Below are positions 23,192 through 50,568 of a stretch of DNA of 64,000 nt, one piece after another. Both the position numbers and the translations under genes were made by a program. Every line of letters starts with the position of its first letter. The first letter of the stretch is position 1. Below the pieces are notes generated by a model that worked only from the letters and a program-made list of their open reading frames with translations, was not told the DNA's origin and made no database searches. Source of the DNA: Taxawa tesnikishii (nom. ined.) (lineage: Eukaryota > Ascomycota > Dothideomycetes > Dothideales). The stretch spans positions 1 to 64,000 of the forward strand of contig JAPDRO010000001.1 in NCBI GenBank assembly GCA_030247885.1, written 5' to 3'.

Positions 23192-25692
23192 ATGCTGTCC
23201 AAGTTATACTCGCCACGCGTCGTCATCATCGGGGCCGGTATAGTCGGCACAAACCTTGCTGATGAGCTGGTTTCACGAGGATGGACCGACATCACAGTAG
23301 TCGACCAAGGACCTCTAGAAATGCCTGGAGGTTCCACTTCTCACGCTCCTGGCCTCGTGTTCCAGACAAACGCATCTAAAACGATGACTCTATTCGCACG
23401 CTACACAGTGGAAAAGCTGGTGTCTCTGGAAGAGGATGGCCAGAATTGCTTTAACCAAGTTGGCGGGCTGGAGATCGCGACTACTCCAGAACGACTAGAG
23501 GAACTGAAGCGCAAGCACGGCTATGCCTCTTCATGGGGCATCGAAGCTTACTTGCTCAGTGTTGAGGAATGCCTAGAGAGGTACCCGCTGCTGAATAAGG
23601 CTCAAGTGAAAGGCGGTCTTCACATTCCCACCGATGGCCTTGCTCTAGCTGCACGCGCTGTTCAACTCCTCATCAAACGTACCCGCAAAGCTGGCGTACG
23701 GTATGTCGACAAGACTCCAGTTACTGGAATTGCACGATCTAGCGGGCATGTTACTGGCGTAGAGACGCCCGACGGCACAATCCCGGCCGACATTGTCGTC
23801 TCTTGTGCCGGTTTCTGGGGCGTCGAAGTGGGCGCCATGATTGATCTGCCCATTCCTCTACTCCCTTTAGCTCATCAGTACGTCAAGACTACCTCCGTAC
23901 CAGGTCTGTCCAGCCGCAACAACTCACCAAATGGAGCACCACTGCCGATCCTGCGTTATCAAGACCAGGATCTGTACTACCGCGAGCACGGCGACCAGTA
24001 TGGCATTGGGTATTACGGCCACAAACCTATGCCGGTCGTAGCTGCATCCCTGGGCTTGACTTCCGCACACGTCGATGAAAAGAACATGCCCTCCCGTCTC
24101 GATTTCACACGCGAAGACTTCGAGCGCGCTTGGGAGCTATCCCAAGAATTCCTGCCCTGCATCAAGGAGGCCGAGATCGCAGACGGCTTCAATGGCATCT
24201 TCTCCTTCACGCCCGACGGAGGATCACTCGTGGGTCAAGCGCCGAACCTCGAAGGTTTCTACGTCGCCGAAGCAGTCTGGGTGACACACTCTGCCGGCAT
24301 CGCTCGCGCAGTGGCTGAGGTTTTGACGACGGGCAAGAGCCAGATCGATCTTGCGGAAGTCGAGCTAAGCCGCTTTGAAGAAGTCCAGCTGACGAGATCG
24401 TACGTCAACGAGACGTCAATGCAGAATTTCGTCGAAATATACGATATCGTGCACCCGCTGCAGCCGCGAGAGTCGCCTCGCAATCTGCGCGTTAGCCCGT
24501 TCCATGCTCGGCAGAAGGAACTCGGCGCTTATTTCCTTGAGGGCGGTGGATGGGAGCGCCCGTACTGGTACGAGAGCAACGAAAAGTTGATCGAGGACTT
24601 GCCGGATGAATGGAAGCCTGTTGAGCGGGACGCTTGGTCTGCGCGGTACTACAGCCCGATTGCTGCAGCAGAGGCGTGGAAGACGAGAACGGCGGTGGCC
24701 ATGTACGACATGACGCCACTACGGCGCCTGGAAGTATACGGACCGGGCAGTGTCGAGCTGCTGCAGCGATTAAGCACAGGAGATGTTGGAAAGAAGCCTG
24801 GTGCCGTCACATACACGCTGTTCCTGGACGACAGCGGTGGCGTGCGCAGCGATGTGACTGTTGCCAGGATCGAGGATGAACTTTTCCAAGTCGGCTGCAA
24901 CGGCCCTGTCGACCTCGTCTATCTCAATAGGGAAGCCAGAAAGCAGATGCAGCGGAACCCTAACAACTGGGTCACAGTACGCGACATCACTGGAGGGACT
25001 TGCTGCATTGGGCTCTGGGGCCCAAGATCAAGGGAGGTGATCGGCAAGGTCAGCTCCGACGACTTCTCAAGCACAGCCAAAGGCTTGCGCTACTTCCGCG
25101 TCAAGCGTGCGACCGTTGCCGGTATCCCAGTGACCATGATGCGGCTGTCGTATGTGGGAGAACTGGGCTGGGAAATCTACACCACTGCAGATCGAGGTCA
25201 GGCATTGTGGGATACACTGTGGAAAGCAGGACAAGACTCCGGAATCATTGCAGCAGGCCGTACCGCTTTCAACTCGTTGAGACTGGAGAAGGGATACCGG
25301 TCTTGGGGCGGGGACATGACCACCGAGCATGATCCTTTCGAGGCTGGTGTTGGCTTTGCCGTAAAAGCGGGCAAACTGGGTTATGTCGGACAAGCTGCGC
25401 TCGAGGGACGTTCAGTGGGAACGGCGAAGAAACGACTACGCTGCCTCGTCATTGACGATGATACCGCCGTGGTGCTTGGGAAAGAGCCTGTGTTTGCTGG
25501 TAGCAAGGCGAGCGGTTATGTCACCAGTGCTGCCTTTGCTTACACGATTGGCAAGCCTATCGCTTATGCTTGGTTGCCTAGTTCAGTAAGTGAGGGGAGA
25601 AGGTCGAAATTGAGTACTTTGGCAAGAAGATTGAGGCTACGGTCACCGCTGAGCCGTTGTTTGATCCGCAGATGGAACGGCTGCGTGGGTGA
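23192..25692 (+). CDS. Dimethylglycine oxidase, actinobacterial type (FAD domain plus GcvT-like domain)
   Basis: An intronless gene of about 833 residues. The N-terminal half is a DAO-type flavoprotein with a dinucleotide fold ([16 protein letters not shown], residues 12-27) and the SHAPGLVF motif whose His51 matches the covalent FAD histidine of Arthrobacter dimethylglycine oxidase. The C-terminal half is an aminomethyltransferase-like folate domain ([12 protein letters not shown], later [10 protein letters not shown]). The enzyme oxidises dimethylglycine to sarcosine with H2O2 and passes the one-carbon unit to tetrahydrofolate. Resemblance to the bacterial enzyme is high along the whole length, suggesting transfer. 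One base appears to be missing in the G run at 25594-25597: past it, the family's C-terminus continues in the next frame to the TGA at 25690, while the unshifted frame runs to 25762 as nonsense. This is probably an assembly error. Confidence 0.92.
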
Positions 25693-26012
25693 TTGCGTTG
25701 TTGGAAAAGTGCAGATTGGGCAACGAGCATACGCAACGATGGAAATTTGTAGCAGGCATTAGGCGTATCGTCATAACTAAGTATCTATGTAGTAGCGTTG
25801 TCAGAGGCGTCTTTCAGTAAGCACGTGCATTGGCAGTGATGTGGCAGGGTCCGCCGAGGACCGCGGCAAGCCGTGCCAGCACGTGATATGGATGGATAAG
25901 TTACCCGTAAACAGACATGGTGACCCACGCTGAGAATCCGCACATAAGCGCTCTTTAACCGCGCTACCCACAACACGGTCCAGAACAGGCATGCGCCTGC
26001 CGAGCTCCATTT

Positions 26013-48900: not shown

Positions 48901-50568
48901 ATGGCCGGCCCGACCACCACCATCCACCTCCCAACCGCTGGCACCACCACCAAGCTCCCCTCTAACGCCTCGGATTACTATGATTTCCTCATCGTCGGCG
49001 GCGGCACAGCAGGCTGTGTCATTGCCAGCCGTTTGTCTGAATACCTGCCAAACAAGAAGGTCCTGCTTATCGAAGCCGGTCCATCCGACTTCATGGACGA
49101 CCGCGTGCTTCTCCTCAAGGACTGGCTGAACCTGCTCGGTGGTGAACTCGACTACGACTACGGCACCACCGAGCAGCCCATGGGCAACTCCCACATCCGC
49201 CACTCGCGCGCCAAAGTCTTGGGCGGCTGCTCCTCGCACAACACCCTCATCAGCTTCCGGCCCTTCGAGTACGACTGCAAACGCTGGGAGGCCCAGGGCT
49301 GCAAGGGCTGGAGCTTCAAGACCTTCACTCGCGTGCTCGACAACCTGCGCAACACCGTGCAGCCGGTCCACGACCGCCACCGCAACCAGCTGTGCCGCGA
49401 TTGGGTTGACAGCTGCAGCACCGCCTTAAACATCCCCGTCATCAACGACTTCAACAAGCAGATCAAGAGCACGGGTGCGTTGGAGCAGGGTGTGGGTTTC
49501 TTCTCAGTCAGCTACAACCCAGATACTGGTCACCGTAGCTCTGCCAGCGTTGCCTACATCCATCCAATCCTTCGCGGAGACGAGAAGAGGCCTAACCTGA
49601 CCATTCTGACCAACGCCTGGGTCGGCAAGGTTAATGTCAAGGGCGACAGGGTCGAGGGTATCAACATCAAGCTCCAGGACGGATCCGACCACACCCTGCG
49701 CGCCAAGTGCGAGACCATCCTCTGCGCCGGCGCCGTCGACACCCCACGTCTGATGCTCCTCTCTGGTCTAGGTCCCCGCCAGCAGCTCGAGTCCCTCAAG
49801 ATTTCCGTCGTGGCCGATATCCCGGGTGTGGGTTCCAACCTCCTCGATCACCCAGAGACTATTATTATCTGGGAGCTCAACCGTCCTGTTCCCCCCAATC
49901 AGACTACCATGGATTCGGATGCGGGCATCTTCCTGCGGCGCGAAGCTCCCAATGCGGCTGGCTCTGACGGCCGTGCCGCCGATATCATGATGCATTGCTA
50001 TCAGATTCCCTTCTGCCTCAACACGGCCCGTCTGGGCTACGACCAGCCCATCGACGCCTTCTGCATGACTCCCAACATCCCCCGTCCCCGCAGCCGCGGC
50101 CAACTCTACCTGACCTCCGCAGACCCCAACGTCAAGCCGGCACTCGACTTCAAGTACTTCACCGATCCCGAAGGCTACGACGCCGCCACCATCGTCGCCG
50201 GTTTCCGCGCCGCCCGCAAGGTCGCCGAACAGGAGCCCTTCAAGTCCTGGCTGAAGCGCGAGGTCGCCCCCGGCCCGCAGTGCCAGTCCGACGAGGAGCT
50301 GAGCAAGTACGGCCGCAGCGTCGCCCACACGGTCTACCACCCTGCTGGTACCACCAAGATGGGCGACGTGGCCAAGGACGATATGGCCGTCGTGGATCAC
50401 GAGCTGAAGGTAAGGGGATTGAAGGGCGTCAGGATTGCGGATGCAGGCGTGTTCCCGGACATGCCCACCATTAACCCCATGCTTACGGTGCTGGGCGTTG
50501 GCGAGAGGGCGGCGGAATTGATTGCGCAGCAGTGGGGATGGAAGGGATTGGAGAAGGAGAAGCTGTAA
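48901..50568 (+). CDS. Choline oxidase (GMC flavoprotein, CodA type)
   Basis: An intronless gene of 555 residues. It shows the FAD fold (FLIVGGGTAGCVIASRLSE), the HSRAKVLGGCSSHN motif in which His113 aligns with the flavin-linked His99 of Arthrobacter choline oxidase, the active-site Glu in DHPETI, the histidine in HTVYHPAGTTKMG and the asparagine in PTINPMLTVLG. These are the residues that distinguish choline oxidase from other GMC enzymes. It converts choline to betaine aldehyde and on to betaine using O2. Resemblance to the actinobacterial enzyme and the lack of introns suggest an ancient bacterial source, though fungal choline oxidases are known. It is paired head to head with betaine-aldehyde dehydrogenase. 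Confidence 0.94.
   Translation: MAGPTTTIHLPTAGTTTKLPSNASDYYDFLIVGGGTAGCVIASRLSEYLPNKKVLLIEAGPSDFMDDRVLLLKDWLNLLGGELDYDYGTTEQPMGNSHIRHSRAKVLGGCSSHNTLISFRPFEYDCKRWEAQGCKGWSFKTFTRVLDNLRNTVQPVHDRHRNQLCRDWVDSCSTALNIPVINDFNKQIKSTGALEQGVGFFSVSYNPDTGHRSSASVAYIHPILRGDEKRPNLTILTNAWVGKVNVKGDRVEGINIKLQDGSDHTLRAKCETILCAGAVDTPRLMLLSGLGPRQQLESLKISVVADIPGVGSNLLDHPETIIIWELNRPVPPNQTTMDSDAGIFLRREAPNAAGSDGRAADIMMHCYQIPFCLNTARLGYDQPIDAFCMTPNIPRPRSRGQLYLTSADPNVKPALDFKYFTDPEGYDAATIVAGFRAARKVAEQEPFKSWLKREVAPGPQCQSDEELSKYGRSVAHTVYHPAGTTKMGDVAKDDMAVVDHELKVRGLKGVRIADAGVFPDMPTINPMLTVLGVGERAAELIAQQWGWKGLEKEKL

Follow-up and report, generated by a model that had tools for sequence, protein, structure and literature searches.

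Candidate choline catabolic genes around a bacterial-type dimethylglycine oxidase at a chromosome end of the fungus Taxawa tesnikishii

We analyzed the first 64,000 nucleotides (forward strand) of contig JAPDRO010000001.1, hereafter C1, in the genome assembly GCA_030247885.1 of the dothideomycete Taxawa tesnikishii; this whole stretch is referred to as the window. With modest confidence, we propose that two neighbouring groups of genes at this chromosome end encode the uptake and the oxidative breakdown of choline. The first group (23.2-34.0 kb) holds a dimethylglycine oxidase (DMGO), a flavoenzyme, a Rieske oxygenase and a permease, and the second (46.2-50.6 kb) is a divergent pair of betaine aldehyde dehydrogenase (BADH) and choline oxidase genes. 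A first-pass annotation, made from the letters of the DNA, had described them as a near-complete choline-to-glycine set. Of that description, choline oxidase, BADH and DMGO proved well supported, the Rieske step was weaker and the sarcosine step was not supported. We regard the genes as a plausible choline catabolic set in which three enzymes are firm, the Rieske oxygenase is probable and the sarcosine oxidase is not settled by sequence. The positions of all the genes, like the families of the three firm enzymes, are read from the DNA as follows.

About 1 to 116, no strand: telomere repeat (CCCTAA)n, read from the sequence.
23192 to 25692, plus strand: DMGO, from its domains and a solved-structure match; frame change near 25.6 kb.
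26090 to 27505, plus strand: FAD oxidase of the monomeric sarcosine oxidase/fructosyl-amine oxidase family, from domain and structure matches.
30001 to 31295, plus strand: GbcA-like Rieske oxygenase, from model ranking and motifs; ends placed by eye, frame broken at least three times.
32009 to 34009, plus strand: amino-acid permease (PF00324), from Pfam; intron at about 32485-32793, placed by eye.
46246 to 47744, minus strand: BADH, from structures and NCBIfam; frame change near 46.81 kb.
47745 to 48900, no strand: upstream region common to the divergent BADH and choline oxidase genes.
48901 to 50568, plus strand: choline oxidase of the GMC family, a single open frame of 555 amino acids.

The DMGO gene, in which no intron was seen, carries the Pfam domains DAO, FAO_M, GCV_T and GCV_T_C on a single open reading frame (ORF). 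Its product matches the solved DMGO with 1286 bits over residues 7-814, compared with 339 bits for the animal dimethylglycine dehydrogenase, which bears out the identity first given to it. The solved protein (PDB 1pj5 and 3gsi) is that of Arthrobacter globiformis. The two are co-linear over residues 7-814 and have the same domains, and what we take to be the active-site residues of the solved chain (48, 225, 259 and 552) align with H51, H228, Y262 and D554 of the window protein. The window gene differs in its fungal host, its place near a telomere and a frame change close to the C-terminus, where the last residues run on in another frame. Elsewhere in the genome, a GCV_T domain was found at one further place, in a gene on contig C30 that reads like the glycine cleavage T-protein.

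The second group was likewise identified as originally named. The nine solved proteins that best match the first piece of BADH all bear the name betaine aldehyde dehydrogenase, and NCBIfam BADH models rank best for both pieces, each piece scoring under the whole-protein cut-offs. The protein ends in -AKL, presumably a PTS1-like signal. Choline oxidase has the GMC domains and its best match, at 375 bits, is the solved choline oxidase; the histidines that we take to link the flavin and to act in catalysis are kept. NCBIfam choline dehydrogenase models also match it, under their cut-offs. In this genome BADH has 30 matches and choline oxidase 34, themselves included, and the next by score are 40% and 31% identical, respectively. 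A second close copy of DMGO, BADH or choline oxidase was not found in the 29.37-Mb genome, which was searched exon by exon with only the best candidates scored, so that short exons can escape. On this evidence the families of all three enzymes appear well supported.

Parts of the route are already known in Aspergillus; what is new is the grouping, the bacterial-type DMGO and the candidate fungal betaine demethylase. According to one report, the A. nidulans BADH AN1430 and DMGO AN8654 go up on choline and betaine rises three-fold (PMC4830055). The choline oxidase and BADH of A. fumigatus are described as retold in PMC12807369, and the pathways between glycine and its N-methyl derivatives are called well studied in filamentous fungi in PMC7033051. 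The window pair consists of the same two kinds of enzyme as CHOA and BADH of A. fumigatus and AN1430 of A. nidulans. As compared here, it differs in lying 12 kb from DMGO, the Rieske oxygenase and the permease, a setting known here for the window only. We take the divergent arrangement of the pair in Aspergillus from the first-pass annotation. Enzymes of the choline-to-glycine route have reportedly been described from Cylindrocarpon didymum, a report not confirmed among the titles found. The remark that no fungal cluster with the whole route had been described held for the titles and abstract openings searched, most subscription papers lying outside that search; it needs qualifying in that the route is partly described in A. 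nidulans.

In the route that we propose, choline oxidase and BADH would convert choline to glycine betaine, and the GbcA-like Rieske oxygenase would take one methyl group off betaine to give dimethylglycine. DMGO would turn dimethylglycine into sarcosine, with the methyl carbon passed to folate or released as formaldehyde. The flavoenzyme next door, or a paralogue elsewhere, would then produce glycine from sarcosine. The permease, whose assignment PF00324 bears out, may take up a methylated glycine, either betaine, dimethylglycine or sarcosine. The full route would let the fungus use choline and betaine as sources of carbon and nitrogen. That this chromosome end carries a complete fungal choline-to-glycine cluster, centred on an actinobacterial DMGO and with the Rieske protein as candidate glycine betaine N-demethylase, is a more tentative idea, possible but rather doubtful.

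The Rieske oxygenase bears most directly on this idea, as its place beside DMGO makes for a concrete and testable substrate claim for a fungal Rieske oxygenase. Its catalytic motifs are visible as first reported, each in its own frame and placed by eye: C-x-H at 30280-30288 and C-x2-H at 30339-30350 for the Rieske site, and D-x3-E-x2-H-x4-H at 30635-30673 for the iron site. Both sites are those of GbcA, and such motifs are general to Rieske oxygenases. Among five NCBIfam families, GbcA was the best for the first piece of the gene with 58.9 bits (next, 44.7), and two further pieces matched no NCBIfam family. Across the genome, searched exon by exon as above, the GbcA model at E ≤ 0.001 matched the window gene only. 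Two of the six Rieske matches in the genome are the window gene; the other four read as a nitrite reductase, two other Rieske-domain proteins and a bc1 subunit. The betaine-demethylase step is supported because of the ranking of models for the first piece, the lack of another Rieske-oxygenase-like gene among those found in the genome, and the context. We consider the gene a probable candidate for a betaine demethylase, its substrate being judged from the sequence and its surroundings. The earlier claim of a Rieske oxygenase stands, with GbcA ranking first for the first piece, but no single open frame spans the gene. Plasmid-borne relatives (548 records, each less than 60% identical) were set aside as a guide to substrate: among the rows listed, the annotations are ring-hydroxylating dioxygenases, Rieske proteins and SRPBCC proteins, which do not settle it.

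The Rieske protein could instead be of the kind of the yeast CMO1, acting on choline or carnitine to give trimethylamine and an aldehyde, and not be a betaine demethylase at all. CMO1 is reportedly needed for the use of choline as the only source of nitrogen, as the title of Linder 2014 states, and PMC5816127 presents it as a putative choline monooxygenase of unproven reaction, thought to release trimethylamine and glycolaldehyde. Both would be fungal oxygenases tied to choline, a likeness drawn from the literature and not from sequence. When the first Rieske piece was compared with solved structures, a carnitine monooxygenase (45.9 bits) and 4qup (45.7 bits) scored about as high as ring dioxygenases (48.4 and 46.3 bits). 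We take 4qup to be a stachydrine demethylase. On the other hand, a CMO1-like reaction would leave the DMGO next door with nothing to supply it with dimethylglycine, this same piece ranks GbcA first among the curated models, and CMO1 itself had not been biochemically characterised according to the same text (PMC5816127). We consider this explanation quite improbable. If the window protein is a betaine demethylase and the fungal proteins called choline monooxygenase-like are of the same kind, their substrate would differ from the one proposed in yeast.

The last step is less clear. The flavoenzyme gene has two introns (26892-26943 and 27185-27234) and its product ends in -SRL, which we take to be PTS1-like. 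It belongs to the family shared by amadoriases, or fructosyl-amine oxidases (PDB 3djd and 4wct), and monomeric sarcosine oxidase; it is nearer the former, and its sequence does not fix the substrate. Against solved structures it scored 113.6 bits with fructosyl-amine oxidases and 34 with monomeric sarcosine oxidase, which is not what the label "sarcosine-oxidase-like" had described. The cysteine of its R-I-C-W motif and the lysine that follows H-G-W have aligned counterparts in amadoriase, residues whose roles are in part given in PMC6222107. Two paralogues elsewhere, L013 (contig C17) and L012 (contig C4), share 25-32% identity with the window protein and fit the solved sarcosine oxidase better (53 and 60 bits). 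All three are nearest amadoriases and fall under the cut-off of the sarcosine oxidase model soxA_mon. These paralogues are from the best 14 of 100 candidates in a search of the genome for the flavin-oxidase family, so more may exist. The conversion of sarcosine to glycine by the window flavoenzyme is thus not supported over that by the two paralogues, and the statement that every step is covered was too strong, because the flavoenzyme is nearer amadoriases and both paralogues fit sarcosine oxidase better.

To place DMGO among its relatives, a scan of prokaryote genomes yielded 21 loci, of which the nearest are from Arthrobacter (67-69% identical). Sixteen of the loci are 56-69% identical to the window protein and the remaining five 33-41%. 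These loci were fished with peptide patterns from the window query itself, with no other fungus included, and distant DMGO groups are therefore under-sampled. We built a maximum-likelihood tree with 23 rows, namely the 21 loci, an additional copy from L040 and the first 800 or so residues to which the window protein was trimmed (800 residues). It grouped the window protein, with 100/100 support, in a set of nine that also holds Micrococcaceae and Microbacteriaceae, and does not settle the branching within the set. Since the protein shares about 69% identity with Arthrobacter DMGO and sits in an actinobacterial clade, horizontal transfer is suggested; within this bacterial sampling it is the simplest reading, and an ancestral fungus probably gained the gene from Micrococcales-like Actinobacteria. 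It would be one more catabolic gene gained by transfer, here a DMGO of bacterial type located in the subtelomere of a fungus. No DMGO relatives were found in viral contigs. For the sampled loci, we rejected the idea that the entire set came from Actinobacteria by transfer, since DMGO alone shows close sequence similarity and the other route enzymes are not close to the sampled bacterial genes.

We compared the 10-kb flanks of the bacterial loci with the window queries; several contigs are short, and the counts are therefore lower bounds. A Rieske match lies anywhere in the flanks at 8 of the 21 loci, and in six of the 21 (L044, L045, L046, L047, L048 and L051) it starts no more than 250 bases past the end of the DMGO match. 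At four loci (L045, L047, L048 and L049) the Rieske, BADH and choline oxidase queries all find a match. These four actinobacterial loci resemble the window in having a similar enzyme set close together. They differ in sequence, with identities of 26-36% for the Rieske pieces, 31-42% for the BADH pieces and 31-37% for the choline enzyme, and they lack a flavoenzyme match. The choline enzyme of L045 matches a choline dehydrogenase model above its cut-off. GbcA is the best model for the Rieske proteins of L045 and L050 (222.8 and 339.6 bits, under the cut-off). At the four loci nearest the window DMGO (L038-L041), none of the Rieske, BADH, choline-enzyme or flavoenzyme neighbours was seen.

Several results weigh against a joint choline-to-glycine route. 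For the second Rieske piece, HcaE (32.4 bits) outranks GbcA (29.5), and the pieces reached 56.1 and 26.5 bits against a GbcA cut-off of 670 (NF058607), a comparison weakened by the broken frame. A Rieske oxygenase requires an electron donor. A search of the genome for a GbcB-type reductase found none, as its three Fer2 matches read as adrenodoxin, xanthine dehydrogenase and complex I; an intron-split domain or another donor could escape this search. The window gene thus resembles bacterial GbcA/GbcB in its motifs and the best curated model for its first piece, and departs from it in a score far under the cut-off, a broken frame and the lack of a GbcB-like Fer2 reductase among the matches. With soxA_mon, the window flavoenzyme scored 46 bits (cut-off 479.65), less than L013 (79) and L012 (70), and a flavoenzyme match is present at none of the 21 bacterial loci. 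A distance of 12.2 kb, with four or more other genes in it, separates the two groups, in line with the original caution about loose clustering. The genes may be regulated together, yet no 8-10-mer is common to four of the five upstream regions, and one pattern for a Zn2Cys6-like regulator, run in six frames and blind to introns, gave none. Frame changes are also denser in the Rieske gene than expected (3 vs 0.37; Poisson P of 3 or more, 0.006). As for GATA sites, none beyond expectation occur in the upstream regions.

The distance between the groups and the missing common promoter word would also fit two separate functions, in which the betaine made by choline oxidase and BADH serves as an osmolyte and the DMGO group scavenges external methylated glycines or N-methyl amino acids. 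Betaine synthesis by these two enzymes in A. fumigatus, as told in PMC12807369, agrees with this explanation. It is harder to reconcile with a GbcA-like Rieske gene two genes from DMGO and with the four bacterial loci where the Rieske, BADH and choline oxidase queries match together. DMGO needs dimethylglycine, for which betaine is the usual source. In a genome of 29.37 Mb, an unrelated pair would lie no more than 12.2 kb from the first group with a probability of about 0.0008. We consider separate functions unlikely and retain a common role in choline breakdown as our proposal.

The isolate itself may carry a working set, depending on how its broken frames are read. Over about 1.2 kb, the frame of the Rieske gene changes three times or more, with a possible fourth change, seen by eye, near its intron. 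One change each occurs in DMGO, BADH, GET4 (51.2-52.5 kb) and DPP4 (57.3-60.1 kb) in the window, and elsewhere in HSP70 (C3:494.6 kb) and CCT (C1:528.3 kb), the latter two met among about 16 chaperone genes. An apparent change in PRMT near 36.9 kb was rejected and read as an intron. All nine placed changes (seven in the window, two in chaperone genes) are of the kind with one base fewer, or two more, as expected from uncorrected long-read assemblies. Because they are all of this kind and also affect other genes, the frame losses point to uncorrected assembly error. Alternatively, the route may be decaying, with the Rieske gene a real pseudogene in this isolate and betaine not demethylated, which would be compatible with the gene identities that we propose. 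The density in the Rieske gene speaks for decay, as eight other genes, some seen in part, have four changes in about 13.3 kb; the kept Rieske and iron-site motifs, the pieces without a stop when cut at the changes, and the uniform kind of change speak against it. We give decay only a small chance.

Between the two groups lie genes for an alpha/beta hydrolase, an arginine methyltransferase, a family III CoA-transferase and GDT1, and two long ORFs without a Pfam match (43197-45831). The end of the second of these ORFs reads like what we take to be a Myb/telobox DNA-binding domain. Since the window opens with CCCTAA repeats, it is a chromosome end, the left end of C1 (2.83 Mb, in a genome of 29.37 Mb in 34 contigs), in agreement with the subtelomeric position first assigned. 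Adjoining the telomere on the minus strand are a DEAD-helicase ORF and an OrsD-domain ORF (2356-5918, Pfam), and the ORF list holds none of 150 amino acids or more between 5.9 and 20.5 kb. Positions 6001-18000 are AT-rich (GC 0.235-0.284), which recalls repeat-mutated subtelomeres. A partial amidase ORF stands at 20520-21113, at the edge of this AT-rich stretch.

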